DNA of 36,475 bases, from positions 1-36,475 of the forward strand of contig NZ_CALEMI010000110.1 in assembly GCF_937910895.1 (NCBI RefSeq). Reading direction: 5' to 3'. Source of the DNA: an uncultured Dokdonia sp. Lineage in GTDB: Bacteria > Bacteroidota > Bacteroidia > Flavobacteriales > Flavobacteriaceae. How positions within the stretch are numbered: position 1 is the first letter of the stretch; each line of letters starts with the position of its first letter. The position numbers and the translations under genes were made by a program. Below the pieces are notes generated by a model. That model was not told where the DNA came from. It made no database searches and saw only the letters and a program-made list of their open reading frames with translations. Positions 3,670 to 36,349 of the stretch are shown here, piece by piece.

Positions 3670-4203
3670 ATGAGATATAGGATATTTTTACTGTTTATTC
3701 TTTTGATGAGATGTCAATCTCATACTCCTTGTCCAGAAGAGTTAAATATTAATGATCACTTTGTAATTCAAAAATGTATAAATAAAATATTGAAGACGCA
3801 AGATGCAAAATCAGTAAACTCTTATTTAGTAAGCCCTTATCTTGATAAACTATCCTTTGGACCTTATTCAAAAGAAGAAATTGATTCAGCTTTTCAATCA
3901 TTTGAAATAGATTTTGATGAAGTGATATTAATGGATGATGCATCTGTGGGCTGTCAAAAACGATATTATGAAAGTCTATCTTCTCTTTCTAATACTAGTG
4001 GTAATGCAGTAGTTTTTAGCAGCACAAGATTGTACGGTGATTTAATCCAAGTTAAATTAACAGATTATTACGGAGATATATCTATGAGTAAAATAAAAAA
4101 TAATGCTGGATTACATACAAGTCAGATGTATGAATATATTCTTAAAATAAAAGAAGACGGGAATGTTGATATCATTCTAAATAGCAGCACTTTTTATGAT
4201 TAG
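3670..4203 (+). CDS. Small exported protein of unknown function
   Basis: This 177-residue protein begins with a signal-like hydrophobic stretch (RIFLLFILLM) followed by Cys15, so it may be a lipoprotein, although the LMRC context is a poor lipobox. Further cysteines lie in the mature part (residues 21, 36 and about 95). The rest is a soluble alpha/beta-looking domain with no motif I recognise. The gene is AT-rich compared with the upstream sugar genes, follows the frameshifted microprotein gene by 9 nt, and is closed by a strong terminator at 4265-4296. It looks like an accessory gene. Confidence 0.65.
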   Translation: MRYRIFLLFILLMRCQSHTPCPEELNINDHFVIQKCINKILKTQDAKSVNSYLVSPYLDKLSFGPYSKEEIDSAFQSFEIDFDEVILMDDASVGCQKRYYESLSSLSNTSGNAVVFSSTRLYGDLIQVKLTDYYGDISMSKIKNNAGLHTSQMYEYILKIKEDGNVDIILNSSTFYD

Positions 4204-8311: not shown

Positions 8312-8324
8312 TACGCTCATTAAG

Positions 8325-11300: not shown

Positions 11301-12413
11301 TATGAGCGAGTAGGAAGTGTAGAAACATTACAATTATTCTCACATCCAGAAGGGTACATAGAACCTATAATCACTTCGGGGAGTACAGCGTATCAATATG
11401 CCTTTAATTATACGGATCATTTAGGAAATATTCGTTTAACTTATGCCGATAGTAATCTGGATGGAAGTATAGAAAGTAAATCAGAAATCATCTCAGAAAA
11501 GCATTACTATCCCTTTGGATTGCAACAAAAAGGATATAATGACGCGGTTACTTCCAACGTGAACAGCGTTGCGGAACGATTTATGTTCGGAGGAAAAGAA
11601 TACGGACAAGAACTTGGATTAGATTGGTATGATATTTCTGCTCGTAATTACGACCCTGCATTAGGACGTTGGATGAATATTGATCCTCTATCGGAAAAAT
11701 TTCATAGTTGGTCTCTATACAATTATGTATATAACAACCCTAATATGTTTATTGATCCAACAGGAATGGGGCCATGGCCACCAAGTTGGTTAGCAAAAGC
11801 GAAAAGTATAGCCATAGGTGTTGCTCATGGATTTATAGGTCATGATCCTAAAAAACCTCCAGCGGATCAAGGTTATATGTTAGATACGTTTAGACAACAT
11901 TCAAACACTGAACGTGTTAAGTCTGATGATGATTATTATGAAGGTGGTCGAATTGGAGGTGCTGTACTTTATGAAGTTGTCGAAACTTATGTTACAGGTG
12001 GTTTGAATAATTTAAAGAAAGTAAAGGGTGCTGGTGAAATTGTAGAACAAATTATTAAAGAAGGCGGTGAAGAACTCTCCCAAAAAGGAGTTAAAGAAGG
12101 AGCAGAACAGTTAGGTAAAAAAGCTGTCTCCCCTAATAGACTTAATCATGTTTTTGGCAAAGCTGAACATAATTTAGATGACTTTGTGAAATCTTTTGGA
12201 GGAGACCAAAATAAAGCATTTGATGCGGTTCAAGAAGCAGCTAATAAAGCTTTAAAAGACGGTGCCTTAACGCCTAATTCAAAAGGAATATTGCCAAGTG
12301 GAGATGCAGGAAATATAATAGAAGTTGCAGGACAACAAATACGCTTAATAGGAGGTAGAATAAAAGATGGGGTAGTTGACCTGTCTTCGTTTAGTCAAAA
12401 AGGATTAAAATAA
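8325..12413 (+). CDS. RHS repeat-associated core protein with C-terminal toxin candidate
   Basis: The protein has 1362 residues from the ATG at 8325, which opens directly on a signal peptide (MKKIIAFVMLMFTILAIGQ); a start 14 codons earlier would overlap the upstream gene and mask it. Domains in order: a Bacteroidota N-terminal domain (YYDGLGRVMQSV, DUF6443-like), YD repeats, a laminin-G-like insert at about 600-750, then the RHS core (DHLGNIRLTYAD, YYPFGLQQKGY, ARNYDPALGRWMNIDPLSE) ending at IDPTG with Asp1144. The last ~218 residues are the variable tail: a Gly/Lys-rich linker, then about 90 residues starting RLNHVFGKAEHNLDDFV. Its small alpha/beta pattern recalls RNase-type polymorphic toxins, but I cannot assign a family. 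A probable immunity gene follows 7 nt downstream. Confidence 0.85.
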   Translation: MKKIIAFVMLMFTILAIGQTTTENYVKTTTYQIPTQTDVVDDEQKIENITYYDGLGRVMQSVSAKAGGNKQNVVQMVTYDSLGRTSKQYLPYATPTEMGTPLNFTNQGVLKDSIETFYNTFKYENTQNPYSETLFEESPLSRPLRQGAPGNSWVIQKDTIFDHTIHYIYTANTTSNQDDEGDDVLDFNVVFNGTDITQPSLQLIGIHSENRLSKTIVQDENFEQRYEAVGPPPGPFDPPQEYTIVESGDHAIEEFTNKKGQVVLKRTYDQEVPHDTYYVYDDFGNLTFVLSPEGSSQIVNGSNLVSNYQDILDRLCYQYRYDYRNRLIEKKIPAKGWEYIYYDLLDRPVLTQDARLRENNQYLFTKYDALNRVVYTGIYQATGGGSNTLIQTAINAQTSFNETRTAATSIGNDTIYYSNGVFPSSNITIHTVNYYDSYIDHAGITLPPTVYADSLTNSTRGLPTVSKVRVLENSDWITSVTGYDEKARPVYGVSVNAYLDTEDITESRLDFIGKVLESKTTHQKTRHQAIVTKDYFTYDHQNRLVTHTQQIDNEPVQLIASNSYDEIGQLESKRVGGQLFEIGYTDLVNVVVSNDGYFITKTDDANSYNAGLATIGKLEDNGGFSFTIETIGSELRVGLNNINTDPGAGGMNYYYLFTTNYNSNGYLYYVFTRPLAGGGSTLQYSGRYLSDNKNFSIEIEEGVAHFKQNGNIKVSVPLEDSEIPLIGDISLKTPNSQISNLNFYATTIDKSLQKVDYAYNVRGWLTDINPETNQNEADLFTFKLYYDDTEGFDTSQDITPTPLYNGNIVQTIWSTANTDKQERSYAYTYDALNRISIASSGKGVAFNTKDVYSLYDVSYDKNGNIGTLKRDSQASKSSTALMDDLTYTYIGNQLQKVDDASGNTNGFKDGGQFANDYTYDVNGNLTTDQNKKITNITYNHLNLPTSIIINDAGGENGTITYIYDATGIKLAKVLVDNSQGITKTTSYAGGYIYERVGSVETLQLFSHPEGYIEPIITSGSTAYQYAFNYTDHLGNIRLTYADSNLDGSIESKSEIISEKHYYPFGLQQKGYNDAVTSNVNSVAERFMFGGKEYGQELGLDWYDISARNYDPALGRWMNIDPLSEKFHSWSLYNYVYNNPNMFIDPTGMGPWPPSWLAKAKSIAIGVAHGFIGHDPKKPPADQGYMLDTFRQHSNTERVKSDDDYYEGGRIGGAVLYEVVETYVTGGLNNLKKVKGAGEIVEQIIKEGGEELSQKGVKEGAEQLGKKAVSPNRLNHVFGKAEHNLDDFVKSFGGDQNKAFDAVQEAANKALKDGALTPNSKGILPSGDAGNIIEVAGQQIRLIGGRIKDGVVDLSSFSQKGLK

Positions 12414-12420
12414 ATTATTT

Positions 12421-12780
12421 ATGGTTGATTATTTAAACAAACTCGAATTTGCTATTATACAGGAGGTATTTAAAAGCAAAACGACTTCAAAGGAGAATCT
12501 TTTCTTACTGGAGTATTTACCCTTTTTGAAAGTGGTAGAGAGAGATTTTACAGGTGTTGGGTTATACGTTAAATTTGATTATGACAATATAAAACAAATA
12601 GAATTTAATGAGAATCTGAATGCCAATTTATCATCAAACAAATCATTAAAGTTCGATTCTTTTGAAGAATATTTTTCTTTTGAATTATCAATAGATAAAG
12701 GTAAGTTTAACTATATAGAAATTGTAACATATGATGATGGTTGGGACGGGAAATATGACTCTTTTTCTTTTGAAGATTAA
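12421..12780 (+). CDS. Probable immunity protein for the RHS toxin tail
   Basis: This 119-residue acidic protein has no signal peptide and starts 7 nt after the RHS toxin gene on the same strand. That position, its size, charge and cytoplasmic location are typical of polymorphic-toxin immunity proteins. The sequence alternates aromatic and acidic residues and ends DDGWDGKYDSFSFED. I recognise no named immunity family, so the role rests on context. The toxin tail is moderately basic, consistent with charge complementarity. Transcription ends at the hairpin at 12862. Confidence 0.65.
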   Translation: MVDYLNKLEFAIIQEVFKSKTTSKENLFLLEYLPFLKVVERDFTGVGLYVKFDYDNIKQIEFNENLNANLSSNKSLKFDSFEEYFSFELSIDKGKFNYIEIVTYDDGWDGKYDSFSFED

Positions 12781-12861
12781 GTTAAAAGAAGGTTTTTGAA
12801 AACAAAATAAAGCACTAGAGAGTCGCGTATTTGAGAATAAGTTTCGATTTGTGCAAATAAA

Positions 12862-12895
12862 AAAGGGGCTGTCTTTTAGATAGCCTCTTTCTTTT
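12862..12895. terminator. Terminator between convergent genes
   Basis: The stem aaaggggctgtc / gatagcctcttt contains two G-U-type pairs and a five-base loop, and is followed by a T-rich tract on the plus strand. It ends the RHS-immunity unit. The stop codon of the minus-strand gene lies in the loop. Confidence 0.75.
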
Positions 12896-13547
12896 TCTTG
12901 ATGAAGAAAAAATAGATTATAAAAGCAACAAAACTAATTCCTAAAATATAAGATAGTATTTTGCCTATATAGTTTCCGAGTTGATAAGAATCATTTTGAG
13001 TAAGTGTTATTTTAGTTCCCTCGTTTTTTTTAACAATCTCTGGTGTTATAAAAGTAAAAGAGTTAAAAAAAACATCTTTATCATTAATAATTTTTTGATT
13101 AGCATTTGAATCATACTGAAAAGTTGCAAAGTAATTTAAACCATTTTTGTATAAGATATGTATTTCTAAAAGGTTATATGTTCCATCTTGATAACTAACT
13201 TTTAAAACATTTTTTTCTGCCAGAGTATTTTCAAAATTATAAGTCTCACTAGATAAAATTTCACTACCAGATTTACCTACATAACCATCTATAATACCTT
13301 TATAATAACGTTTAAGTTCATTTTCATTACTTTCCTTTAGATTCTTTATTGCTTCATTTTTAAAGATAGATAAAGTCATTATTTTATTATCATCTTCATA
13401 GCTGTAGACTTTTGCATTAGGAGTATTTTTAGAACTATAATCAATAGGTAATTTGAATTTTAAATCATGGTTATTGATCAGCTCCCACTTATCTTGTGAA
13501 TAAGTGATTGAGCAAGTTAAAATTATTAGATATAGAATTTTTCTCAT
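12876..13547 (-). CDS. Exported single-pass membrane protein, unknown
   Basis: This 223-residue protein has a signal peptide (KILYLIILTCSITYSQ), an extracytoplasmic domain of about 165 residues, and a C-terminal transmembrane helix (ILSYILGISFVAFIIYFFF) followed by KKKKEAI, so the basic tail faces the cytoplasm. The domain is rich in Lys, Asn and Tyr and resembles the many uncharacterised periplasmic domains of Bacteroidota. The gene is strongly AT-rich and is convergent with the RHS locus. No function is assigned. Confidence 0.65.
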   Translation of the reverse strand: MRKILYLIILTCSITYSQDKWELINNHDLKFKLPIDYSSKNTPNAKVYSYEDDNKIMTLSIFKNEAIKNLKESNENELKRYYKGIIDGYVGKSGSEILSSETYNFENTLAEKNVLKVSYQDGTYNLLEIHILYKNGLNYFATFQYDSNANQKIINDKDVFFNSFTFITPEIVKKNEGTKITLTQNDSYQLGNYIGKILSYILGISFVAFIIYFFFIKKKKEAI

Positions 13548-13729
13548 TTAGATAGTAAAAGTATATTTTAAAAAGTATAATATACATTAATATCTAAAAC
13601 TTAAAATAAAAATAAGCGTTAAAATCATCAGAAGAGTATTCTAAAGTAAGTATGGTAATTTAGAGTTAAGTTAGTTTTTTCTCAAATCTGTCTTCTTCTT
13701 TTTAATTCGATTACTACTCAGATGAGTTA
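13548..13729. other. AT-rich spacer with no gene seen
   Basis: No reading frame, RNA gene or convincing promoter was found. A short dyad (GTATATT / AATATAC, starting near 13560) lies in the probable promoter region of the minus-strand gene that starts at 13547. Confidence 0.4.
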
Positions 13730-13761
13730 GAAAAAACACCAATCTCGAAAGAAAGGTGTTT
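13730..13761 (-). terminator. Terminator hairpin downstream of the truncated copy
   Basis: Arms aaacacc (13734-13740) and ggtgttt (13755-13761) form a stem that is followed by a T run when read on the minus strand. A nearly identical hairpin lies at 16979-17008 after the full-length relative. Confidence 0.7.
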
Positions 13762-14040
13762 AAAAGTATTTAATTATTCCAACCAAACTTCTTTGGCTTT
13801 GTTAAATCCAACCCATTTCATTTCTTTATCATACCCACGAGCAGACAGATTATAACGATTCAGTTTTTCAAGTGGGATATCATAGGCAAGAATAAAGCGT
13901 AAGAGTTCTCCGCTTGCCGTTGCAAACATTCCTCTAAGCTCTTCCCAAAACCATAATGGATTACGATCTGCAAAGATTTCTGCTATCCGATCATAGGAAA
14001 GAGAAGTGTAATTTTCGGGTAATGTTTCAAATATTTGCCC
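13732..14040. repeat. Diverged ~310-bp duplication, copy 1
   Basis: This segment aligns along its whole length, in the same orientation, with 16979-17287. It includes the terminator hairpin and the 3' part of a reading frame. By eye the copies differ at roughly one position in five, so the duplication is old. Similarity stops near 14040, well short of the 5' end of the gene. Confidence 0.85.
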
Positions 14041-14058
14041 TTCAACTAGGAATAACAT
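13774..14058 (-). pseudogene. 5'-truncated relative of the 17021-17434 gene
   Basis: The frame encodes 94 residues. About 83 of them match the C-terminal part of the 137-residue protein at 17021-17434 (shared DRIAEIFADRN, FWEELxGMF, GELLRFILAYDIPLEKL). The first ~43 residues of the full-length protein are missing and are replaced by MLFLVEGQ from unrelated DNA. The frame is still open and conserved, so a short functional protein is possible, but a remnant of an element gene is more likely. A terminator lies directly downstream. Confidence 0.6.
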
Positions 14059-14247
14059 TTATGTATGACTAAAAAATCATGCTCTATGTCTTATAATAAC
14101 ACTACATTTTTTGAATATTATACCTCAAATTCCTTGTTTAAATTATAATTATCTCATAATCAGATATAAAGTTATTATTTTTTTATATATTTATTTGAAA
14201 ATCAGATAATTAATAAAAAGGTGTTAATTATCATAAAATTTATTAAA

Positions 14248-16956
14248 ATGAGAAAGATTTATATCCTTATTTTTCTAATTATTCCAATAATTAGTTTCTC
14301 TCAAATTTCACAATTAGGAAATGATATTGATGGAGAAGTTTTTTGGGATCGATTTGGTTCTTCTATAAGTTTAAGTGAGGATGGTAATCGTGTAGCTATT
14401 GGAGCCAGACTTAATAATAATGAGAATGTCGTAGATTCTGGTTCAGTCAAAGTTTTTGATTTTTTTGGTGATACGTGGAATCAAGTAGGGCAAGAAATTT
14501 TTGGTGAATCAGAAGATGATCAATTTGGATATTCTGTAAGTATGAGTTCTAACGGAAATATTGTTGCTATTGGAGGCCTTATGAATGACGGTAATGGAAA
14601 CAATTCAGGGCACGTAAGAATATATCAGTTAATAGGCAATATATGGGTTCAGTTGGGAACTGATATCGATGGAGAAGGTATAAATGATCAGTCAGGTTTT
14701 ACCGTAAGCTTAAGTGGTATTGGTAATCGGGTTGCTATCGGGGCTAGAACTAATAAAACGAATGATATTAATTTCTCTAAAGGTCATACTCGAATATTTG
14801 AATTTAACGGTTTAAATTGGGTACAACTAGGTCAGGATATTGATGGAGAGGCAGCAAATGATCAGTCGGGCTATTCTGTAAGTATTAACAAAGATGGTAC
14901 ACGAGTAGCTATTGGTGCAACTCTAAATGACGGTTTCGCTTCTAAAGCAGGTCATACACGAGTTTACTCATATAATGGAAATAATTGGATTCAACTAGGT
15001 CAGGATATTGATGGAGAGGCAGCAAATGATCAGTCGGGCTATTCTGTGAGTATTAATGATGTTGGTAATCGCCTTGTCATTGGTGCTGTTTTTAATGATG
15101 AAAATGGTATTGATTCTGGTCATGTGAGAGTTTACCAATTGATAAATGATACTTGGATACAGTTAGGTCAAGATATTGATGGAGAAGCTTCTGGAGATAA
15201 TTTTGGAGAAGCGGTTACTATAAGTGGCGATGGTGAAACTATAGCTATCGGCGCTCGACGTAATGACGGTCAAACAAATATTAATAATATTGGTCATGTC
15301 CGCGTCTTCAAACTAGAATCAAATAATTGGTTACAAGTAAATCAAGATATTGAAGGTGATTTGCAAGGAGATCAATTTGGTGGGGCAGTTAGTTTAAGTG
15401 AAGATGGAAGTGTTTTAGCTATTGGCGCCGTTGGCTCTCTTAACGATATAAATAATGCAGGGTATGCAAGAATTTTTAGCATATCCGATGAAGCTAATTC
15501 AAATGAAGCATTCATTACAACTTGGAAAACAGATAATCCAGGTACTTCAAATGATAACCAAATCACTCTACCAACTTTATTTAGTGCACCATTTGTTTTT
15601 AACTATAATGTTGATTGGGGAGATGGAACTTCAGATACTGGATTGCAAAAAGGTATTACACATACCTATGCTTCTCCAGGAATATACACCATCAAAATTA
15701 CTGGAGATTATCCATACTTCTTCGTTGGATCTTCTGCTAATAAATTTAAATTGATATCTATTGATCAATGGGGTGATATAGCTTGGGAAACTTTTCAAGG
15801 ATCTTTCAAAGATTTCAAAAATTTAGATGTTTTAGCACAAGATGTTCCAGATTTAAGTCAAGTAACAACTTTACATGAAATGTTTATGGGATGCTCTTCT
15901 TTAGTAGGTAATGCAAGTTTTAATAATTGGGACACTTCGAATATTATATTTATGAATGGAGTATTTCAGGATGCTGTATTATTTAATCAACCAATTGGAA
16001 ATTGGGATTTATCAAATGTTCTCAGTTTAACAGATATATTTAGTGGAACTATATTTAATCAAGATCTCAGTGAATGGAACGTTAGTAATGTTACACAGAT
16101 GTCTAGAATGTTTAGAAATAATCCCATTTTTAATTATCCTCTAGAGAATTGGGATGTTGGTTCTGTAATTGGTATGAATGCTATGTTTGAGGGAGCTAGC
16201 TCTTTCAATCAAGATATTGGTACATGGGACGTGAGTTCTGTAATAGGTATGTCTCTTATGTTTGATTCTAGTGCATTTAATCAAGATATTAGTTCATGGA
16301 ATGTTAGCAATGTAACTAATATGAATGCAATGTTTAGAAATACTAATTTTAATCACGATATAGGGAATTGGAATGTAAGTAACGTAACTAAAATGAGATT
16401 GATGTTTGATAATGCACTTACCTTTGATCAAGATCTAGGAAATTGGAATATAAGTAATGTTACCGATGTAAAGGACATGTTTAGAGATGCTAATTTATCT
16501 ACTACAAGTTATGATAATCTTTTAATAGGCTGGAGTAATTTAGATTTACAACCCAACCTTGAATTTGGTGTTGGAAATAGTAAATTTTGTCTTGGAGAAG
16601 TGGCAAGGCAAAGCATTATTGATACATACAATTGGACTATAATTGATGGAGGAAAAGATTTAAATTCTTGTGTTGAAACAATAAATTTTGAAGATAGTAA
16701 TGATAATTCTTTGTCGATAATGTTATTTCCCAATCCAACTAATTCAAGTTTTAATGTTGAGGTTTTAGATAAAGATTTAAATATAACTTCTATCAAAATA
16801 TTTAATTTGAAAGGTAATTTACTAGGAACATACATTAGCAAAAGCAATTATAGTAATCAGAAATATAATTTTGATCTCTCTAATGGATTATATATAGTAA
16901 GGATTTTTAATGGCGATGTTTTACTTGGTCAAAAACAATTAATAGTGAAAAAATAA
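14248..16956 (+). CDS. T9SS-secreted propeller / BspA-like repeat surface protein
   Basis: The ATG at 14248 gives 902 residues beginning on the signal peptide [19 protein letters not shown]; an in-frame GTG at 14221 adds nine residues and is less likely. Residues about 20-410 hold seven repeats of the FG-GAP-like pattern DIDGE..DQFG..VS.S..G..VAIGA..N....GHVR.Y, suggesting a seven-bladed propeller. A PKD-like domain follows ([27 protein letters not shown]), then BspA/DUF285-type repeats with FNQDI..WNVSNVT.M..MF. The end ([14 protein letters not shown]...KQLIVKK) is a type A T9SS sorting domain, so the protein is exported and cell-surface attached. Function is probably adhesion or binding. 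It sits between two copies of an element gene fragment. Confidence 0.85.
14824..14879 (+). repeat. 56-bp exact repeat inside propeller gene, copy 1
   Basis: It is identical to 14992-15047 with a period of 168 bp (56 codons). It covers the junction of propeller repeats 3/4, starting before [12 protein letters not shown]. Confidence 0.9.
14992..15047 (+). repeat. 56-bp exact repeat inside propeller gene, copy 2
   Basis: It is identical to 14824-14879. Recombination between the two would remove or add exactly one propeller blade in frame. Confidence 0.9.
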
Positions 16957-16978: not shown

Positions 16979-17008
16979 AAAAACACCAATCTCAAAAGAA
17001 AGGTGTTT
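16979..17008 (-). terminator. Terminator of the element's left arm
   Basis: The stem is aaacacc (16981-16987) / ggtgttt (17002-17008) with a 14-nt loop, followed by a short T run on the minus strand. It is almost identical to the hairpin at 13730. Confidence 0.7.
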
Positions 17009-17287
17009 AAAAGTATTAAATTATTCCAGCCAAATTTCTTTGGCTTTATCAAATCCAACCCAGTTCTGATCTTTATCATATCCACGAGCAGACAAGCTGT
17101 AGCGAATGAGCTTTTCAAGCGGGATGTCATACGCAAGAATAAAGCGTAATAACTCTCCATTTGCCGTAGAGAACATTCCCTGAAGTTCTTCCCAAAACCA
17201 TAATGTATTACGATCTGCAAAGATTTCTGCAATTCGATCATAGTCTAGAGAAGTATAACTATCAGGTAGTATCTCAAAGGTTTCTCC
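16979..17287. repeat. Diverged ~310-bp duplication, copy 2
   Basis: This is the same-orientation counterpart of 13732-14040. This copy is continuous with a full-length gene (17021-17434), so it is the parental arrangement. Confidence 0.85.
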
Positions 17288-17434
17288 AAAAACGGTCGGA
17301 TGATCTTTAGGTATTATTAAATAGTCCTGTTCTATACTCTGTACAACACCGTAAACTTTATCAGTAGTGCGATGTTCAAAGTTTAACCATAATGCATTAT
17401 CTATTGCCTTACTTTTTCTTTGCTGTCGTATCAT
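17021..17434 (-). CDS. Conserved element protein, unknown (137 aa)
   Basis: The 137-residue soluble protein has no recognised domain. An N-terminal beta-rich half (VYGVVQSIEQDYLIIP) is followed by a helical, aromatic-rich half (FADRNTLWFWEELQGMF). The ATG at 17434 overlaps the 3' end of the upstream gene by 26 nt, which indicates translational coupling. It is the last gene of the left-arm operon and is followed by a terminator. A truncated second copy at 13774-14058 keeps the C-terminal half, so that half is either under selection or recently duplicated. Confidence 0.7.
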   Translation of the reverse strand: MIRQQRKSKAIDNALWLNFEHRTTDKVYGVVQSIEQDYLIIPKDHPTVFGETFEILPDSYTSLDYDRIAEIFADRNTLWFWEELQGMFSTANGELLRFILAYDIPLEKLIRYSLSARGYDKDQNWVGFDKAKEIWLE

Positions 17435-19527: not shown

Positions 19528-19998
19528 CTATAACCAACCTTCATCTGCGAAGGAGACATAGCTTTCTGTAGTTAGGATAATGTGATCGAGTAATTTGATA
19601 TGTAAAGTATCAAGGCTTTTCTTTAAGTTCTTGGTTGTCGAATGGTCAGAATGAGATGCTTTTAAAACCCCCGAAGGATGATTATGAGCAATGATCACTC
19701 CTGTTGCATTAGTAAGTAAGGCGAGCTGTGCAATCTCTTTATAATTTACATACGTACCGTTCGTATTTCCGATACTAATCTCACTAACGCCTAATACTTG
19801 ATTAGCATTAGATAGTAAGATGACCCAAAAGAACTCTTTGTAATCCAATCGATTTGTATCGACAAAATCACGCAAAAGATTTTCAGTAGCCATCGAAGAT
19901 GCAATTCTCTGCTCTTTATCATATAAAGGTCGTTTGTAATGTATTTGGACTTCATTGCATAAAGCAATATCCAAGGGATGTTGTTTTTTGGGTTTCAT
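19528..19998 (-). CDS. radC: RadC-like JAB/MPN (JAMM) domain protein
   Basis: The 156-residue protein consists of the RadC MPN domain without the usual N-terminal helix-hairpin-helix region of chromosomal RadC. The JAMM ligands are complete: Glu73 in GVSEISIG, His105 and His107 in AHNHPSG, and Asp118 in SHSD. RadC-like proteins of this short type are common in mobile elements of Bacteroidota; their biochemical role is unsettled despite the DNA-repair name. It serves here as the reference for the degenerate relative at 26063-26518, which aligns over nearly its full length. Confidence 0.88.
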   Translation of the reverse strand: MKPKKQHPLDIALCNEVQIHYKRPLYDKEQRIASSMATENLLRDFVDTNRLDYKEFFWVILLSNANQVLGVSEISIGNTNGTYVNYKEIAQLALLTNATGVIIAHNHPSGVLKASHSDHSTTKNLKKSLDTLHIKLLDHIILTTESYVSFADEGWL

Positions 19999-23546: not shown

Positions 23547-24065
23547 ATGAGTTATTATATCCATACAACCCAAACTCCTAATATCCTCTTTGATCACTTA
23601 TTAAAACGGTTAACGAGTAGTGAATTAAAAGTACTGCTTACCGTTATTCGCAAAACGATAGGGCAGACACATCCTACGATTCCTGGTACTCGATTAGAAA
23701 GAGCATGGATATCACAAAAGCTGTTTATGCTGTGCTGTAACCTATCTGGACGAGCTGTTTCAAATGCCATTGATTCTTTAGTACAACAAAAATTGTTGCT
23801 GGTAACAGACAAAAAAGGCACTGTTTTGGGAACTAAAGCAAAGCGCAGGGGTGCTTCTCAGCTGTATTTTTCAAGCCTTTTAAGGCTTGAACAGCAAAAA
23901 GAAAAAACTCGTAAAGGGTCTTGTTATAAACCAGTGACAAAAGGTCACACTATTAAACTAAATAATAAAACTAAATCTTGTTACAATACTTCACAAGGTG
24001 CCAGAAAGCTTTCTGACACTGAACGATACCAACAAATAAAAAATACTTTACCCATAAATCAATAA
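23547..24065 (+). CDS. Winged-helix replication-initiator-like protein
   Basis: The 172-residue basic protein has an N-terminal winged-helix domain of about 95 residues (SSELKVLLTVIRKTIGQTH, then LSGRAVSNAIDSLVQQKLLLVTDKKG), as in phage and plasmid replisome organisers and RepA/RepO N-domains. The tail is basic and low-complexity (KLNNKTKSCYN). It is a paralogue of the protein at 25424-25939: both start with TPN-x-x-F-D, share the R-LLGW/R-TIGQ helix position and the RxVxNxIxxLxxxxLxxVxD recognition helix and wing. Its role is probably DNA binding at an element origin or control region. Confidence 0.65.
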   Translation: MSYYIHTTQTPNILFDHLLKRLTSSELKVLLTVIRKTIGQTHPTIPGTRLERAWISQKLFMLCCNLSGRAVSNAIDSLVQQKLLLVTDKKGTVLGTKAKRRGASQLYFSSLLRLEQQKEKTRKGSCYKPVTKGHTIKLNNKTKSCYNTSQGARKLSDTERYQQIKNTLPINQ

Positions 24066-24231: not shown

Positions 24232-24582
24232 ATGAATAAACAACCCAATATATCTCCATCTCAGGCACGTAAGATGCATCACTTGAAAATCAATGATCTT
24301 GCTTACCTTTTAGAAATGGATCAAGGAAATTTATCCCGCTTTGAGGCAGGGAAAATCCAAAACCCCAAAGCCATTATAGGCTATCATATCCTTCTTAATT
24401 TATCAATAGAAAACTCAATAGCGCAAGTTTTTGAAGGTGGCTTCAACAATTTATCTGATAGGTGTTTTCAGTTAATAGAAAAAGTTTCTGAAGGACCAAA
24501 AACACCTAAAAACAGATTACGTCTTGAAGGACTTAATACTGTTGTTACACGACTCATGCAGTTTGATAATGCTCATGAATAA
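24232..24582 (+). CDS. XRE-family HTH transcriptional regulator
   Basis: The 116-residue protein has a lambda-repressor-like HTH at about residues 9-50 (ISPSQARKMHHLKINDLAYLLEMDQGNLSRFEAGK), with DQGNLSRFEAG as the recognition helix and the characteristic following turn. The C-terminal half is helical and may dimerise. Two palindromes and a leader hairpin precede it, so autoregulation is likely. Its last codons overlap the ATG of the RuvC-like gene, so the two are co-translated. It is probably the master switch of the element. Confidence 0.82.
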   Translation: MNKQPNISPSQARKMHHLKINDLAYLLEMDQGNLSRFEAGKIQNPKAIIGYHILLNLSIENSIAQVFEGGFNNLSDRCFQLIEKVSEGPKTPKNRLRLEGLNTVVTRLMQFDNAHE

Positions 24583-25063
24583 GAAAAATCAAACCATATT
24601 AGCGCTCTACCCAAATCGCTACGGTATAGGGTATGCTGTTTTTGATACGCCAGATAATCTTGTAGAGTATGGTATTGGTTATGTACAACCAATAAGTAAC
24701 AAAAAAACTATGAAGCGGGTAAAACAGTATATCGCTTATTATAAACCTAATGTTATTATCACACGAAATATCAACGACCAAAACAAGAAAAGTAAACGTA
24801 TTGAAAAACTCATAGATTGTATTTGCAAAGAAGCACAATTACAAAATTTTGAAGTACACAGTTACACCAGAACGCAAATCAAAGATGTCTTTCTTCAGTT
24901 TGGAGCGAACTCTAAATATCAGATATCACAAAAGATTATCGGATGGTATAAACGATTAGAAAGTTATACGTTTCCAGAGCGTAAACGGTGGATGGCTGAA
25001 AACCATAATACAGGTGTATTTGATGCCGTGAGTTTGGCGATGACGCATTATTATTTGGAGTAA
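24575..25063 (+). CDS. RuvC/RNase H-fold protein lacking the first catalytic Asp
   Basis: The ATG at 24575 gives 162 residues and overlaps the XRE stop by 8 nt; ATG 24569 is an alternative. The protein follows the RuvC pattern: strand 1 TILALYPNRYGIGYAVFD, VIITRNI in the middle, basic helix region, and the last helix NTGVFDAVSLAMTHYY, like the DAADALA end of RuvC. In RuvC strand 1 reads D-P-G; here the Asp position is Tyr12 (LYPN), so the active site is incomplete or rearranged. It may be a structure-specific DNA binder rather than a resolvase. The family call rests on pattern, not on a search. Confidence 0.55.
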   Translation: MNKKNQTILALYPNRYGIGYAVFDTPDNLVEYGIGYVQPISNKKTMKRVKQYIAYYKPNVIITRNINDQNKKSKRIEKLIDCICKEAQLQNFEVHSYTRTQIKDVFLQFGANSKYQISQKIIGWYKRLESYTFPERKRWMAENHNTGVFDAVSLAMTHYYLE

Positions 25064-25167: not shown

Positions 25168-25434
25168 ATGCTTAGGTATTGGGTTACAACCCTAAGGTTG
25201 GAAGTACGTAAAGTACAATTTAAAATAACAAAATTTTATAATGTCGTTACTCGCAAAATAATCTCAAATGAGGATAGTGATAAAAAAATCTACCATAAAG
25301 TAGGAGTTATTAAAGTCACCAAAAATGGTGGTTGGTTTTTAAGTCTTTACCAACAGCCTAATACGGAGTTTATGGTATTCCCAAATCACAATGAAGCACT
25401 ACCAGTAATCGAATTTGGAAACAATGAAGCTTAA
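25168..25434 (+). CDS. Small beta-rich protein, unknown
   Basis: The protein has up to 88 residues from ATG 25168. The basic N-terminus (LRLEVRKVQFKITKFYNVVTRK) is followed by beta strands (YHKVGVIKVTKNGGWFLSLYQQPNTEFMVFP). The pattern of small paired strands with basic and aromatic residues would suit a nucleic-acid-binding fold, but no family is recognised. Its end overlaps the next ATG (25424) by 11 nt, indicating coupled translation with the winged-helix paralogue. Confidence 0.6.
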   Translation: MLRYWVTTLRLEVRKVQFKITKFYNVVTRKIISNEDSDKKIYHKVGVIKVTKNGGWFLSLYQQPNTEFMVFPNHNEALPVIEFGNNEA

Positions 25435-25939
25435 TAACACGACAGCGGTCCCAAATGTATTTTTTGATAAGCAGATTGGAACGTTAAGAGGATCGGCTAT
25501 ACGGGTGTATTTAAAAATCGTTCGTAATCTTTTAGGATGGCGAGATGAAAATGGACAAGTAAAGAAGCGAGACTGGATAGCTCATTCGCAATTTGAAAAA
25601 ACTGGACTTTCAAATAGAAGTGTTACCAATGGTATTGAAGAACTGCTAGAGAAACAATTAATCCAAGTAGCTGACTACATAGGAAACAATTTAAGCGATC
25701 CTAAACAACGTAAGTTAGCCAAACGAGTCTACTACTCATTACTACTGGATAACTCAGAAAAAACTACGTTCCAGACCGAAAAAAACGACCAAAACAAAAC
25801 GCAAGAGTTGCTTACTACAAAAGAAATTAATTACAAAAAGTACAGTGCAAACGAAAGAATTCCTGACCATATACGAATTCAAAGAATTAAAGATGAACAA
25901 GAGCGTAAGCAGATTCAAAGAGATAGCTGGAATACCTAG
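25424..25939 (+). CDS. Second winged-helix replication-initiator-like protein
   Basis: The ATG at 25424 gives 171 residues and overlaps the preceding gene by 11 nt; ATG 25415 adds three. The N-terminal winged helix (VPNVFFDKQIGTLRGSAIRV...LSNRSVTNGIEELLEKQLIQV) is a clear paralogue of the 23547-24065 protein. It contains the LLGW motif typical of RepO-like domains. The tail is highly charged (RIQRIKDEQERKQIQRD) and probably helical. It likely binds element DNA, possibly at an origin. The NACHT cargo region interrupts the right arm after this gene. Confidence 0.65.
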   Translation: MKLNNTTAVPNVFFDKQIGTLRGSAIRVYLKIVRNLLGWRDENGQVKKRDWIAHSQFEKTGLSNRSVTNGIEELLEKQLIQVADYIGNNLSDPKQRKLAKRVYYSLLLDNSEKTTFQTEKNDQNKTQELLTTKEINYKKYSANERIPDHIRIQRIKDEQERKQIQRDSWNT

Positions 25940-26062
25940 TTGTCTTTTTTGATTAGGAAAGAGAATAGTAAAAGCTAACGCTTTTAAATAATTGATTTAA
26001 GTATTGACAATTATTATTTGTAATGATATGGTAATTAATAAGTTGAACCTTAAAAAAATATT

Positions 26063-26518
26063 ATGTCTTCAAAAATAATACTTAATGAATATGAACAACA
26101 TTTCGAAAATGATGTTTTTCAGTTACAGCTTGTCACTACTAATAATCAAAAATTATATACTGTTGGAAATACAATTATTTGGAATTTCCTTACTAACAAT
26201 TATGTGATTAAAGATTTACCAATGGAATGCATTTGGATATTTTTCATAAATGGTAATGATAAGATAAAAGGCTTTGTAAAAGTTTCATTATTGGATTGGA
26301 AAACGAACCATCCAACTGAAACACTTCGTGTAATTTTATCTGCTGATGTAAAAAAAGTAATTTTTGCATTACATCTAGGTCAAATTCAAAAATCTTTAGA
26401 ATTTTCTAATACTTTTACAATAATGCATAACAATTTATTAGAAAAATTTGATATTGAAGTAGTTGATACGTTATTAGTGAATGATGATAACTATTATTCA
26501 TTAATAGAAAATTGTTAA
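26063..26518 (+). CDS. RadC-like MPN protein with all JAMM ligands lost
   Basis: The 151-residue protein aligns almost end to end with the element's intact RadC (19528-19998). Matching blocks are WIFFINGNDKIKGFVKVSL against WVILLSNANQVLGVSEISI, KKVIFALHLG against TGVIIAHNHP, and LLEKFDIEVVDTLLVNDDNYYSL against SLDTLHIKLLDHIILTTESYVSF. The catalytic Glu73 is Lys73, His105 and His107 are Leu103 and Leu105, and Asp118 is Asn116. The fold is probably kept and the metal site abolished, so this is a pseudoenzyme. The frame is intact and AT-rich. It converges on the NACHT gene, sharing a bidirectional terminator. Confidence 0.75.
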   Translation: MSSKIILNEYEQHFENDVFQLQLVTTNNQKLYTVGNTIIWNFLTNNYVIKDLPMECIWIFFINGNDKIKGFVKVSLLDWKTNHPTETLRVILSADVKKVIFALHLGQIQKSLEFSNTFTIMHNNLLEKFDIEVVDTLLVNDDNYYSLIENC

Positions 26519-26528
26519 TTTAAATAGG

Positions 26529-26564
26529 ACAATCCTCTGATATAATATTAGAGGTTGTTTTTTT
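26529..26564. terminator. Bidirectional terminator between the dead RadC and NACHT genes
   Basis: Arms acaatcctct and agaggttgt with one bulged base, followed by nine T on the plus strand. The last NACHT codons lie in the right arm. Confidence 0.75.
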
Positions 26565-29500
26565 GTCTAAATATTTCCCAATATCGATCTGTGCGTTTTA
26601 ATCTACTAATTTTAGATTCTAAATAGTGTAACGTTCTTTTTAATAAAACACGTTGATTGGGAGGTAAATGAAGTTCACTTAAAAGTAATTTTGTGTTTGT
26701 TTGCTGAAGCAATGTAAAAACATCATAACCTCCTAATTTTTGACATACTTCAAAAAATTCAAAATCAAAAAATGAAAAATTATTTATTTTACCTTCATTA
26801 AGGTTTTCAAGAGAGTTTATAATTATTTTTCTGCGATTTTTTAAATACTCATTATTAAGTTTGTAAAAGTTTTCAGGATCCATGTCACAAAGAGCATTAT
26901 AAGCCCAAATGGATAATATATTTTTTCCATTTAATAAGTCTAGTAAATATGGAACGGTAATTTCAATATTGCAGGCGCTATAAAACTCAATAACTTTTTG
27001 AGTACTAAAAAATTCATCATTAATAATTTTTAAAATATCATCTACAAAATATTTTGGAAGTCTAATCTTGTATAAGGTAAAAGATTTCAAAATCATTTCC
27101 CTTGTTTCTAAATCTTCTTTTAGAAAAATACTATGTAAAGTCTGAAAGCTTTTTACTGTCTCGTTCTTATGAGAGTAGTAAGATTGAGAAACATAAATAG
27201 ATAAACCGTAAATGCCATTATACTGTAATTTTTTATTATTTGAGGTTGATAATTTGATAAAAAGTGGAATATCTTTATCACGAATGAGTCTATAAAAAAC
27301 ATAGCTAACATTTATCACAATTCGGCTTGAGGTGTTCTTATTATTTAATGTGTCACTCCATTTATCTAATAATTCTTCTTTTATTTGATAATCTAAAATA
27401 TGATTAAAGCTATTAAGTATTATCATAGCCATACCATATCTGCCTTTACTATTATATGCTATATAAGTAAGGTAGCTGAGAATTCTTTTTTTATTCTCTA
27501 GAGTAATTGTATTGGAATGTAACTTTATTTCGTTTTTATAAAAAAATTCATAAAGTGTTTTGAGGTTATATGATGTTGGAGAATGTGTCTTAAAATAAAA
27601 AGAAAGATATTCATTTGGATATAAAAAAATACAATCAAATAAAAATGTTTTTAAAAAATCTAAGGGTTGTTTGTAGTCAAAGTTTTTCCTTAGTATAGGT
27701 TTTTTTCGGCTTTCAAAAATTGGACTAAAAACCATTGAATTAATAATTGAGAATAACAAATTTGGAGTATTGTCGATATGATCTACAAATGTGCTGTTTT
27801 CATATAGGGAATAATTATAATTTTTGTATTCATATTTATCCATTTTTATTCCTTCAAAATGATTTCTACATAAATCTTCACTCAAAATAATACTCATCTC
27901 ATAAGTACTTGTTAAAAAAAGTTCATATTTTGGTTGGATAAAAGGATAAAAGTGAAGAAAATGGTTATTAATCCTAGGAATTAAAGAAGCACAATAATTA
28001 CCAATATAATTAAACCTCCTAATTGAAAAGAAAAATAGTTCACTTGTAATATTGGTAGGCTTACTTTTATCATTTATTCTATATCTTAAATCATTAAAAA
28101 GAATAAGGCTAAAAGTATTTAAGAGATAAAGTTTGTCTAATAATTTAAACTTTTTACTATTGTTTCCGCTTTCTATAAATTTTAGTGCATACTCCAATTG
28201 TCTTATAAATTTATTGTTATAAACAAATTGTTTTTTGATAATAAAAGTGTCTAAAGGTTCCATTATTTTACTAGGAGAAATCAGTCCAAATAAATATGTT
28301 TCTATGGAATAGAAACTATCAGTATCTCCCTTGAATTTTTTGCGATATTGTTTATGATTTCTAATACTATTGATCTTCCCAGTTAAATAATTTGCTGCAA
28401 AAAATAACCGTATTTCTTTTATTTCAAACCCTAGGCTCTCACCCTTAAAAGATAAAATAGAATGTTTATGAAAATCATCGATTAATTGTTGAGGACTTAT
28501 ACTATCATCACTTATATTTTCCAGATATTCGATTGCTTTTTCATATATAACATTTTCAATATCTTCTTGTTCAAAAGTTAAATAATAAGCAAGTTTAGAA
28601 ATCAAATCAATTTGTTGAGATTTTACTTTTTTCCATTTATGTTCTGGTAATTTAGCTTTTTGAGTATTTTCATAATCCTTTAAAAAATCATCAATTAATA
28701 CCTTCTTAAATAACTTTCCTTTATTCTTTAATAATATAGTAATCTGCCTGAGTTCAAACTGACCTTGCCTCCCTAGGTGGGAAATTAAAAATATTAGATG
28801 TAGAGGAATACTTATAAACTCTAATAGCCTTGCTCTTTCTAGATTTTCAAAATATTCTTGCCCTTTTTCTGGGAAAACTTTATTTAATATTCTATGAATA
28901 TTGTTAGGATTAAAATTAGACAGTTTATAGGTTTGAAATTCGCTACCTTCTAATCCGATAGGCTTATAACGTCCACTTAAAATAATCTGGCAATTATATA
29001 TTTTCTTAAAGTCCTTGATTTCTTGTATTAATTTATGCTCTTCTTTACCAGAATATTCGTCAAAACCATCTAATAGAAGAATCAAAGACTTAGTTGAAAT
29101 ATTATTAAAACTTGAATTAAATCGTTTAAGTCTGCTGTTTATAAGATCAATAAAATTAGAGTTATAAAATTGGAGTTCTATAAAAATAGGAACTACATTT
29201 TCTTGCATAGATAATTTATAGGTAAACCATTTGAGTGTTGTTGTTTTTCCAGTTCCTGCTGGAGAAGAAATAAAAATATCATTGTAACTATTCAATACTT
29301 CTAATGGTTTATTTTTTTTGTTTAAAAACTCATTAATTTTATTAATTTCATCTTGTAATTGTTGTGATATATTTGGGTTTGTAGCTTGAATATCTATATC
29401 ATTATTTTCTTTTAATGACTCAAGTTCTCTAATTAATAAATCACGTCTTTCCACCTCAATTTTATCTATTATAAAAAAAGGAAGTTCTACAACATCTTCT

Positions 29501-30174
29501 ATCGATACAGGAAGACTATCATATCCAAATCTGATTTCTTTAAATTCATTTTTTAATAATGATCTGTAGTCTCTAATGCTTTGAGATATTGCAACATCAT
29601 TTTTTTTGGAAGCTGTACTTTCGATATTTTTGAATAACTCTTCTTTTTCGTTGTTATCATCAAATTCAAAAAAAGATAATTTAAAATTAGGTTGTAATTC
29701 AGCTAGAACCTTTGGCAAACCAATTTTTATTAATAAATAATTTAATAATGAATTTGTAAAAAAGACATGCTCAGCATTAATAGCAGTAGCATCAAGCGTA
29801 TCAAAAAAAGTAATGAGGTTTACGAGTGATTTTTGTCTCTCATCATAATCATTATAACTTCTCGTTAATGAAAAATAATAATAGAATAAAATAGCATTGA
29901 ATGCATTTATAGATAGTTTTCCACTTTTTATATGTTTAGCAAGGGTTTCTTTTTCAATATTATATTTTATAAATCCTTTAATTTTTGTAGAATTTTTTAT
30001 TGGATCACTTATTATTAGTCCATCATCTATATTCCATGCTGATAAAGCAGACATTAAAGAACTTAATATGTGTCCAGTAATAGTAAAATGTGCTTTTCCT
30101 TTTTCTGGAATAGGTAAATCTTCTATACCATAAAGAAACTTCCAGAAAGAATTCATCTTATTTTCTTTAACCAT
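26548..30174 (-). CDS. NACHT-domain STAND ATPase, probable anti-phage protein
   Basis: This is a 1208-residue protein; ATG 30156 is an alternative start six codons in. Residues 1 to about 290 form a helical N-terminal region of no recognised effector family. The NACHT module follows: Walker A SSPAGTGKTTTLKWF near 305-320, Walker B with the extra acidic residue LILLLDGFDEYSG near 365-375, and QIILSGRYKP as sensor I. The remaining ~800 residues are helical and Tyr/Asn/Lys-rich, perhaps HEAT-like in the last third, and would be the ligand-sensing part. Bacterial NACHT proteins are known phage-defence proteins. It is the only minus-strand gene in the right arm and is very AT-rich, indicating separate acquisition. 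Confidence 0.85.
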   Translation of the reverse strand: MVKENKMNSFWKFLYGIEDLPIPEKGKAHFTITGHILSSLMSALSAWNIDDGLIISDPIKNSTKIKGFIKYNIEKETLAKHIKSGKLSINAFNAILFYYYFSLTRSYNDYDERQKSLVNLITFFDTLDATAINAEHVFFTNSLLNYLLIKIGLPKVLAELQPNFKLSFFEFDDNNEKEELFKNIESTASKKNDVAISQSIRDYRSLLKNEFKEIRFGYDSLPVSIEDVVELPFFIIDKIEVERRDLLIRELESLKENNDIDIQATNPNISQQLQDEINKINEFLNKKNKPLEVLNSYNDIFISSPAGTGKTTTLKWFTYKLSMQENVVPIFIELQFYNSNFIDLINSRLKRFNSSFNNISTKSLILLLDGFDEYSGKEEHKLIQEIKDFKKIYNCQIILSGRYKPIGLEGSEFQTYKLSNFNPNNIHRILNKVFPEKGQEYFENLERARLLEFISIPLHLIFLISHLGRQGQFELRQITILLKNKGKLFKKVLIDDFLKDYENTQKAKLPEHKWKKVKSQQIDLISKLAYYLTFEQEDIENVIYEKAIEYLENISDDSISPQQLIDDFHKHSILSFKGESLGFEIKEIRLFFAANYLTGKINSIRNHKQYRKKFKGDTDSFYSIETYLFGLISPSKIMEPLDTFIIKKQFVYNNKFIRQLEYALKFIESGNNSKKFKLLDKLYLLNTFSLILFNDLRYRINDKSKPTNITSELFFFSIRRFNYIGNYCASLIPRINNHFLHFYPFIQPKYELFLTSTYEMSIILSEDLCRNHFEGIKMDKYEYKNYNYSLYENSTFVDHIDNTPNLLFSIINSMVFSPIFESRKKPILRKNFDYKQPLDFLKTFLFDCIFLYPNEYLSFYFKTHSPTSYNLKTLYEFFYKNEIKLHSNTITLENKKRILSYLTYIAYNSKGRYGMAMIILNSFNHILDYQIKEELLDKWSDTLNNKNTSSRIVINVSYVFYRLIRDKDIPLFIKLSTSNNKKLQYNGIYGLSIYVSQSYYSHKNETVKSFQTLHSIFLKEDLETREMILKSFTLYKIRLPKYFVDDILKIINDEFFSTQKVIEFYSACNIEITVPYLLDLLNGKNILSIWAYNALCDMDPENFYKLNNEYLKNRRKIIINSLENLNEGKINNFSFFDFEFFEVCQKLGGYDVFTLLQQTNTKLLLSELHLPPNQRVLLKRTLHYLESKISRLKRTDRYWEIFRQKNNL

Positions 30175-30211
30175 TTATCTTAATTTTCTAATTAAAAAAT
30201 ACAATTTTAAA

Positions 30212-30262
30212 AATCGAATACATTTTAGAATGATTATTCTCAAATCGAATATGTTTTCGAAT
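30212..30262. promoter_or_regulatory. Tandem 20-bp repeats between NACHT gene and transfer operon
   Basis: ATCGAATACATTTTAGAATG (30212-30231) and ATCGAATATGTTTTCGAATG (30243-30262) match at 17 of 20 positions and are 31 bp apart, about three helical turns, so they would face the same side of the DNA. The second copy contains a TCGAA/TTCGA dyad. They lie 38 bp upstream of the NACHT ATG on one side and 64 bp upstream of the 30326 gene on the other, as expected for a shared operator. Confidence 0.6.
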
Positions 30263-30325
30263 GTAAATTAGAATCACAAATTACTGATTACTATTTACTT
30301 GCTACCGTAATATAAACAAATAATT

Positions 30326-30787
30326 ATGGCGGTGAAAAACGATAGAATTACCTTTAGTTATCTCAAGAGACTAAATGAAGAGATCAAGTCTAACAATCCT
30401 ATTAGACAAAATAAAGCCTATCAAGCTTTATCAGAAATAAATCATAATGGACTAAATCCGGGTCTTCTTATGTATATCTATTATCTCCAAGGAAAGTATC
30501 ACTATTTAGACTTTAAACGTGATGATAACTTAAAGTCGATAGCTGCGGCTGTAGAATGCTACAGATTAGTATTTCAAACAGCACGTCAACATAGAGTATT
30601 TGCTAAGAATCCTAAGTATTATTTTAAATATGCTGAGAGTTTACATAAGCTTTCACAGTATACATTTTGTTTATTTGAACAAAACAAGCTTCATAACAAA
30701 GCCTATTTAATTGCAATACATTCAAGTAATAAGTTTCCTGAAAGTACATCATTACAATGGCTAAAGCATCACATTTTAGCTAATTGA
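30326..30787 (+). CDS. Helical element protein, unknown (153 aa)
   Basis: This 153-residue basic, mostly helical protein has paired helices rich in Tyr and Leu (LMYIYYLQGKYHYLDFKRDD, YYFKYAESLHKLSQYTFCLFEQNKLHNKAYLIAIHSSNKFP) that suggest TPR-like packing. No signal peptide or membrane segment. It opens the transfer operon of the right arm but is followed by a terminator-like hairpin (30801-30829), so downstream genes may be partly insulated. No function is recognised. Confidence 0.65.
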   Translation: MAVKNDRITFSYLKRLNEEIKSNNPIRQNKAYQALSEINHNGLNPGLLMYIYYLQGKYHYLDFKRDDNLKSIAAAVECYRLVFQTARQHRVFAKNPKYYFKYAESLHKLSQYTFCLFEQNKLHNKAYLIAIHSSNKFPESTSLQWLKHHILAN

Positions 30788-35087: not shown

Positions 35088-35505
35088 TAATACAACATAT
35101 CATACGCTCCAAGACTATCTTGAATCTCGTTTTGATAATGTTGATGTTGTTACTGATACGATGCTCAAACAAGCAAAGCAAGAATGGCGAGCGATCTATC
35201 TTTCCCGATACTACAAGCAGTATCGGGAAAGATATATTCAGGTTAGTTTTCGTATTCTAAAGAAGCAGTATCAAGAATATGAAAGAGAAGCCAAGAAGCA
35301 AAATATCATCACAACGACCTATATCAAGCGCTTGGTACTTAACAAGCAAAATAATGATCAATCAGTTACTCTAACAGCACTTAGGATTATTCTTTTACAA
35401 ATCATAGATAGTCTTGAGGAATCACTACACGAAGAAACAACAGTAGATACCCAATACCTCTTATCACTCATAGAAAAATGCCATACGCTTCTGAATGATC
35501 GTTAA
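35077..35505 (+). CDS. mobC: MobC-like mobilisation accessory protein
   Basis: The 142-residue protein starts at TTG 35077, overlapping the DUF2958 gene by 11 nt; no ATG fits until codon 29, so TTG is the best start. A ribbon-helix-helix-like segment lies in the middle (YIQVSFRILKKQYQEYEREAKKQNIITTTYIKRLVLN), followed by a helical C-terminus. It would bind oriT and assist the relaxase. Its end overlaps the relaxase ATG by 11 nt. A perfect 16-bp inverted repeat (35197-35234) lies inside the gene. Confidence 0.72.
   Translation: MSDNNTTYHTLQDYLESRFDNVDVVTDTMLKQAKQEWRAIYLSRYYKQYRERYIQVSFRILKKQYQEYEREAKKQNIITTTYIKRLVLNKQNNDQSVTLTALRIILLQIIDSLEESLHEETTVDTQYLLSLIEKCHTLLNDR
35197..35234. repeat. 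Perfect 16-bp inverted repeat with 6-nt loop inside mobC-like gene
   Basis: Left arm TATCTTTCCCGATACT (35197-35212), loop acaagc, right arm exact reverse complement (35219-35234). It encodes the YLSRYYKQYRERY stretch. Such arm length without a mismatch is not expected by chance and suggests an oriT-like hairpin, a protein-binding site or an RNA control stem. Confidence 0.92.
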
Positions 35506-36349
35506 AGCCTTATCTCATAAAAGTAGTAACGTATCGGCTATCCGCAGACTCGTTGAATATGTTTGCGATCAAGAGAAAATGCAAGATCGCTACTACGGCA
35601 GAAAACCGCTTATAGTAAAACAATTTCTACAAAGCTATGAACAAGGAAATTGGGTACAAGCTTTAAAATCCAATGATGATAAGCGAACGTTTAATCACGC
35701 AAAACGAACGGTACTTCGTCATGAGATTATCAGCTTCGCAAAAGAGAGTAATCCGCTCATTTCACGAAATACGCTACAGACCTTTGCGAAATATTATCTC
35801 AAACACAGGATGACAAAACCAACAATGGGCGTCGCCGTAGTTCACTATGATGAAGCACCCCATATTCATTTTGTCATCGCTGGTATTGCTCTAGATGGAT
35901 CAGCAACGCGGATCAGCAGAAAAGAGTTTAAAACCTTTAAAATCCAATTGCAACAATTCCAACAAGAAAAGTTTCCTGAATTATCACATTCTCTTGTCGA
36001 TCATAACAAAGCTAAAACTCTAAAGCTTAAATTGACTCATCAAGAACAGCGTATGAAGGAAAAAGGGAAGATATCTGAGAAAGAAAAGCTTTCGCGAAAA
36101 GTGATACAGATAGCACAAGAATGTGTGAGTTTGGAGGAACTAGAATCAAAACTTAATAGGCATAAACTCAAGCCATATCACAGGAAAGGAATACTTACAG
36201 GTGTATGGTTAGACAAGAGAAAATTTAGACTAACAACGCTCGGCGTAGGTAGAGAGCACCTGAAAGAAATGACAAGGGAACAGAAGCGATTAGACGCTTT
36301 GTTTCAATCTCAAAAAGGTAAAGATCAAGAACGAAGGTTAGAGCGATAA
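35495..36349 (+). CDS. mobB: Relaxase / mobilisation nuclease
   Basis: The 284-residue protein carries the metal-binding relaxase motif HYDEAPHIHFVIAG (HxH near residues 125-127) and a preceding LRHEIISFAKES helix. A basic C-terminus follows (HKLKPYHRKGILTGVWLDKRKFRL). It should nick oriT and pilot the strand through the coupling ATPase. I place it in the MobP/MobV-like Bacteroidota relaxases without certainty; the catalytic Tyr is not obvious, with Tyr near residues 22, 33 and 34 as candidates. The length is short for the class. ATG 35495 overlaps the mobC-like gene. A TTTCGCGAAA word lies at 36090-36099. A terminator follows. Confidence 0.82.
   Translation: MIVKALSHKSSNVSAIRRLVEYVCDQEKMQDRYYGRKPLIVKQFLQSYEQGNWVQALKSNDDKRTFNHAKRTVLRHEIISFAKESNPLISRNTLQTFAKYYLKHRMTKPTMGVAVVHYDEAPHIHFVIAGIALDGSATRISRKEFKTFKIQLQQFQQEKFPELSHSLVDHNKAKTLKLKLTHQEQRMKEKGKISEKEKLSRKVIQIAQECVSLEELESKLNRHKLKPYHRKGILTGVWLDKRKFRLTTLGVGREHLKEMTREQKRLDALFQSQKGKDQERRLER
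36090..36099. repeat. TTTCGCGAAA palindrome, copy 4
   Basis: Core palindrome inside the relaxase gene, the second copy on the mobile element. Confidence 0.85.

Follow-up and report, generated by a model that had tools for sequence, protein, structure and literature searches.

The function of RadC is unsettled: its participation in DNA repair is contested, and involvement in nucleic acid processing is hypothesized only (PMC5512222, PMC11981726). For the RadC domains of mobile elements specifically, an action on nucleic acids or nucleotides has been hypothesized (PMC5512222). The JAMM motif is given as EXnHS/THX7SXXD (PMC300881). The HNHPSG-x4-S-x2-D pattern, which is present in the 25 RadCs used for comparison in this study, fits that motif.

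MPN- subunits of the Csn6 type keep a JAMM-type fold without the metal motif, as we propose below for a RadC-domain protein. Csn6 itself belongs to another branch of JAMM proteins and to a multisubunit complex, the COP9 signalosome (PMC3431379). On the NACHT side, bNACHT25, a bacterial antiphage protein related to NLRs, has a NACHT-type ATPase at its center and extensive regions on both its N- and C-terminal sides (PMC12169576).

Here, we analyze a 151-amino-acid RadC-like protein that is encoded beside a predicted NACHT ATPase on a mobile element. Positions are those of the window, meaning the whole 36,475-nucleotide stretch of DNA that was analyzed. Neither a metal-less RadC nor a RadC-NACHT pair was found in the open-licence PMC literature among the matches listed.

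Homology of the RadC-like protein

The gene at 26063 to 26518 on the + strand starts with ATG and runs for 151 codons with no internal stop, so the intact reading frame of the original prediction was confirmed. By profile comparison, its product is a strongly diverged RadC-domain protein. The Pfam RadC family (PF04002) matched residues 49 to 149 with an E value of 2.1e-4 and 21.6 bits, relative to a curated cutoff of 22.1. A PF04002 search of its own genome gave the product 21.5 bits over positions 15 to 118 of the profile and scored the frame as over the cutoff (22.1 bits) together with neighboring matches in that frame. A family of short phage RadCs, phrog_10276, matched residues 12 to 149 of the 151 (E = 0.0028), and HHalign assigned the match to RadC a probability of 95.8. 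Against a profile of the 25 fetched RadCs, built without the protein itself, the product scored 28.8 bits, whereas 2,000 shuffled sequences scored at most 10.3 and the reversed sequence scored -0.2. These 25 RadCs were chosen by the pattern H.HP[SA]G, so that the motif His and Pro are invariant as a result of the choice; the pattern does not account for the constancy of the Ser and Asp. A comparison with an alignment that already contained the query was dropped as circular.

The same element carries a motif-bearing short RadC at 19528 to 19998 on the - strand (156 residues; Pfam RadC E = 3.6e-35; HNHPSG...S..D present). Pairwise BLAST of the RadC-like protein against this comparator was not significant (E = 0.18 and 0.45), and neither was phmmer in a set of 1,203 ORFs (E = 0.24). 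The homology claim therefore rests on profiles. The near end-to-end alignment with RadC that had been proposed holds as profile homology over nearly the whole protein (residues 12 to 149 in the phrog_10276 match) but not as a significant pairwise match to the element's own RadC.

Loss of the metal site

HNHPSG...S..D is absent from the RadC-like protein, which reads F-A-L-H-L-G-Q-I-Q-K-S-L-E-F-S-N at the place of the motif. The first His, the Asn, the Pro, and the Asp of the motif are missing in every alignment register, whether from HMMER, HHalign, MAFFT, or a gap-free alignment. The original prediction had read both catalytic His residues as Leu and the Asp as Asn. These replacements appear in the gap-free register only; in HMMER, HHalign, and MAFFT alignments, the second catalytic His is instead matched by His104 and the Asp by Ser115. 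The register of the His residues is ambiguous.

HMMER and HHalign also place Ser111 on the motif Ser, although with low posterior confidence. These placements would be expected if His104 and Ser111, together with a nearby Ser, Asn, or Glu, formed an altered metal or catalytic site, in which case the protein would not be a pseudoenzyme. We consider this reading very improbable, since the motif has lost its first His, its Asn, its Pro, and its Asp, the His of an "LDH" motif is gone as well, and a single remaining His would hardly suffice to restore the known site. All 25 RadCs have the LDH His, whereas the RadC-like protein has Thr136 there, and one invariant Gly is also lost. Of the 13 columns that are invariant in the 25 RadCs, the HMM alignment retains E55, G106, S111, T119, and S146, with H104 joining them if the register is right.

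The Lys reported in the Glu73 column was correct in register but is weak evidence. The change is not diagnostic because 14 of the 25 motif-bearing RadCs have Glu neither in that column nor one residue earlier; Glu occupies the column in 3 and the preceding residue in 8 more. This variation in the position of the JAMM Glu among motif-bearing RadCs bears on the chemistry of RadC.

Probable maintenance of the open frame

We simulated neutral drift of the window's intact RadC, using substitutions only, this one starting gene, and the base composition of the AT-rich block described below. The frame remained open in 0 of 1,000 runs at 25% identity (mean of 10.2 stops), in 0 of 1,000 at 40%, and in 1 of 1,000 at 60%. 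Because neutral drift left 0 of 1,000 simulated frames open at 25% identity, the open frame of the RadC-like gene was probably kept by selection.

No close relative of the RadC-like protein was found in relatives, family, phylum, plasmids, phages, viral contigs, or genome_contigs, and none of these searches returned a homologue with the same lesion. The only match among 99 relatives (E ≤ 0.001) was the window's own. At E ≤ 0.01, matches were found in 18 of 397 family genomes and in 10 of 395 phylum genomes, each count including the host genome; the best other matches had E values of 1.5e-4 and 5.6e-4, respectively, the latter in a stop-ridden frame. For the other matches, an ORF encoding a RadC with the metal motif was present at 12 of 18 family loci and 6 of 9 phylum loci, and the rest were without such an ORF; the genomes counted in the different searches may overlap. 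Plasmids and viral contigs gave no match, and the single weak phage match (E = 0.3) proved on reading to be an HNHPS-bearing RadC. No match was obtained in genome_contigs with exact 8-residue patterns, which are sensitive to close relatives only.

Within 36 family genomes, 100 of 123 PF04002 matches scored at least 93.5 bits and covered at least 101 of the 121 profile positions. The remaining 23 covered at most 84 positions; these were fragments, interrupted frames, or matches of low score. None of the 123 was a near-full-length, low-scoring RadC resembling the product of 26063 to 26518, in a sample of genomes selected mainly for having several RadC matches and with matches judged by scores and ranges. 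The apparent RadC remnants in the match table for related genomes were either short or, as exemplified by genome G155, divided between two frames.

These results bear on whether the gene is simply decaying, in which case a RadC that came in with the NACHT block would be on its way to losing its function, with its frame still open only by chance. The failure to find relatives with the same lesion would fit such a history, but both the drift simulation and the different form of the apparent remnants argue against it, and we judge decay to be improbable. The gene looks instead like an isolated lineage, neither a member of a common class of dead RadCs nor a product of ordinary decay, and we consider it quite likely to encode a functional, noncatalytic protein. 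The idea that the fold has been kept without catalysis is supported indirectly by the profile homology, the broken metal motif, and the survival of the open frame relative to neutral drift, with the fold itself being predicted from sequence.

The NACHT neighbor and the gene junction

The convergent arrangement with a NACHT gene was also borne out: the gene at 26548 to 30174 lies on the - strand, 29 bases from the end of the RadC-like gene, and encodes a predicted P-loop ATPase of 1,208 amino acids. SPAGTGKTT and LLLDGFDE were read in its product, and we take these to be a Walker A motif and a DGxDE-type Walker B motif. tblastn matched the protein to annotated plasmid NACHT NTPases with a best E value of 1e-7 and 22 to 29% identity, and blastp alignments agreed. 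Pfam AAA scored 21.7 bits, over its cutoff of 21.2, and Pfam NACHT scored 16.2 bits, under its cutoff of 26.7. The Walker A motif, DGxDE-type Walker B motif, and homology to annotated NACHT proteins together place the predicted product among NACHT/STAND NTPases. Its N-terminal residues 1 to 280 matched no Pfam family.

Close relatives of the NACHT protein were likewise not found in family genomes, phylum genomes, plasmids, viral contigs, genome_contigs, phages, or the host genome. At E ≤ 1e-10, the only match among 397 family genomes was the host genome, where the protein matched only itself; at E ≤ 1e-4, 2 of 395 phylum genomes matched, the other through a 1,209-codon frame aligned over residues 300 to 464 only. 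Phages gave no match. More distant matches came from 13 plasmid records, from viral contigs (0 with the single protein as the query and 14 with an alignment query), and from genome_contigs (at least 3). They lay mainly around the NTPase core, at 22 to 29% identity in plasmids, 23 to 37% in short segments of viral contigs, and 24 to 30% in genome_contigs. At the DNA level, 25900 to 30400 had no match in plasmids. Of the searches made for the two proteins, several were sensitive to close relatives only.

A terminator-like hairpin followed by a T-run lies after the RadC-like gene on the + strand (26534 to 26554) and overlaps the last codons of the NACHT gene; 4 such sites occur in 6 kb, compared with 1.1 expected. 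The predicted RNA fold of 26515 to 26575 had a z score of -3.4 on the + strand and -2.1 on the - strand. We rejected a shared two-way terminator, as the T-run hairpin was reported for the + strand alone. A sigma-70-like promoter match precedes the RadC-like gene (26004 to 26032, + strand), but it is weak evidence, with 42 such sites in the region relative to 38.4 expected. Since the hairpin lies between convergent genes, separate transcripts that end against each other are predicted, not an operon.

A shared AT-rich block

Both genes lie in an AT-rich block (25940 to 30325) with a GC content of about 24 to 26%, compared with 34 to 37% in its flanks, and we regard it as a putative acquired cargo module. 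GC3 was 0.159 for the RadC-like gene and 0.173 for the NACHT gene, relative to 0.248 to 0.368 for 20 other genes between 17021 and 36349. Low GC3 is not confined to this pair within the window, as values of 0.175 to 0.187 were found in three window genes outside the element as bounded (3670 to 4203, 12876 to 13547, and 14221 to 16956). No repeats of 10 bases or more were found at the edges of the block; the longest match was a single 9-base inverted match, which we took as chance. Since no other gene of the element has a GC3 as low as the RadC-like and NACHT genes, which together fill one AT-rich block, they look like a single cargo block, which suggests that they were acquired jointly.

The same composition speaks against the RadC-like gene being independent cargo, such as the gene of a rapidly evolved protein of genetic conflict, perhaps acting in anti-restriction or as a transfer helper, whose place next to the NACHT gene in an AT-rich cargo site would be coincidental. 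Several other observations are nevertheless consistent with independence. The orientation is convergent, with the hairpin in between, and additional RadCs are common in this genome, which has seven high-scoring, motif-bearing RadCs besides the RadC-like gene (the window's own being one of the seven, and six lying in frames shorter than the 264-codon one). Furthermore, no RadC-like ORF was found beside any of 22 distant NACHT loci within 3.5 to 14.6 kb of sequence.

These 22 loci comprised 18 from phylum genomes, viral contigs, and genome_contigs and 4 of the 13 plasmid matches. With filters off, the scan returned two chance-level ORFs (E = 0.71 and 0.42), and as a positive control it recovered both RadC-type genes of the window (E = 5.8e-8 and 3.5e-51). 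Because of their distance, these loci weigh little against a link between the RadC-like protein and the NACHT protein, and they do not support one either. We treat independent cargo as a serious alternative, somewhat short of an even chance and about as likely as any link to the NACHT protein.

The mobile element and a Gabija-bearing sibling

The element encodes a serine recombinase, two replication-O-like proteins, and a conjugative coupling protein; the gene at 35495 to 36349, which has no Pfam match, was taken for a relaxase by reading. The host was taken for a member of the Bacteroidota because of a type IX secretion sorting domain (PF18962), type IX secretion being a marker of this phylum. 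The two genes of the phage replication-O type, at 23547 to 24065 and 25415 to 25939, are diverged copies with 31% identity. The product of 24524 to 25063 has a weak RuvC match (E = 0.08) and a counterpart of 42% identity on a sibling element, where it lies beside an HTH gene; it was assigned to no family.

The sibling, which lies elsewhere in this genome on contig C160, has ten proteins in common with the window's element at 23 to 88% identity, including RadC (68%), a DNA adenine methylase (88%), and a TrwB/HerA-type ATPase (59%). It carries a complete Gabija system (10303 to 14321 of the C160 locus; GajA, E = 1.9e-261; GajB, E = 4.9e-218) between the recombinase and TrwB/HerA-like genes, a site at which the window's element has only 97 bases. 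The presence of Gabija on the sibling raises the likelihood that the NACHT block serves in defense, although this is a single case and does not show that the RadC-like gene belongs to the block. The defense role that had been suggested for the pair is favored by one sibling element and by the AT-rich block shared with a predicted NACHT gene.

Other features of the window were noted. Direct repeats of about 357 bases that are 81% identical (13732 to 14087 and 16979 to 17335) flank a DUF285/FG-GAP gene (14221 to 16956) whose product has a type IX sorting domain, and possibly record a past insertion or duplication. The left repeat overlies a 94-amino-acid frame resembling part of the 17021 to 17434 product. 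Two long genes occupy 4562 to 12780; the second has RHS-type matches, and the first is RHS-like by reading only. A small gene after this pair could be an immunity gene.

Proposed function

Taken as a whole, the best explanation of the locus is a noncatalytic, binding-type RadC-fold protein that travels with a predicted NACHT defense gene, a reading that we hold with about even confidence. The protein would be a RadC fold minus the JAMM metal site, presumably folded and expressed, whose probable mode of action is binding and not catalysis. The RadC-like gene and the NACHT gene would form a single cargo block, both having been taken up jointly by a mobile element in a host of the Bacteroidota.

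That the RadC-like protein works with this particular NACHT protein is plausible but less likely than not. If it does, the mechanism that we favor is that it may serve the module as a ligand-binding accessory, either a bait or an adaptor, for the protein or nucleic acid partner that is engaged by the intact RadCs of competing phages and plasmids; the metal-less copy could still bind whatever ligand or protein those RadCs bind. The NACHT protein might thereby sense the invader, with both the partnership and its direction being conjectural. Bait and adaptor are guesses, and the layout of the locus would suit an inhibitor just as well. The complete scheme, a two-gene, RadC-guarding, NLR-like immune module in which the RadC-like protein is the bait or adaptor of a NACHT ATPase, appears unlikely. 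If true, the resident element would detect incoming phages or plasmids through their RadC or through the target of their RadC.

Comparison with known systems

With the RadC family (PF04002, phrog_10276, and the short RadCs of mobile elements), the RadC-like protein shares profile homology over nearly its whole length and, relative to the RadC of the same element, a similar size (151 and 156 residues). It differs in its destroyed metal motif, in the lost invariant Gly and LDH His, and in its PF04002 score, 21.6 bits relative to at least 93.5 for the 100 full-length RadCs. Gabija is the defense cargo of the sibling element, as the NACHT block would be on the window's element, but it is a different system at a different element site. 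The window's NACHT protein resembles bNACHT25 in its layout, with sizable regions on either side of the central ATPase. No metal-less RadC accessory is described in the available portion of the bNACHT25 report (PMC12169576), and the N-terminal 280 residues of the window's NACHT protein match no Pfam family.

A natural RadC in which the domain persists while the metal site is lost, and whose gene accompanies that of a predicted immune ATPase, offers a handle on what RadC binds. Integrated decoys exist in plant NLR immunity, and if the RadC-like protein and the NACHT protein do work together, the pair would resemble them.
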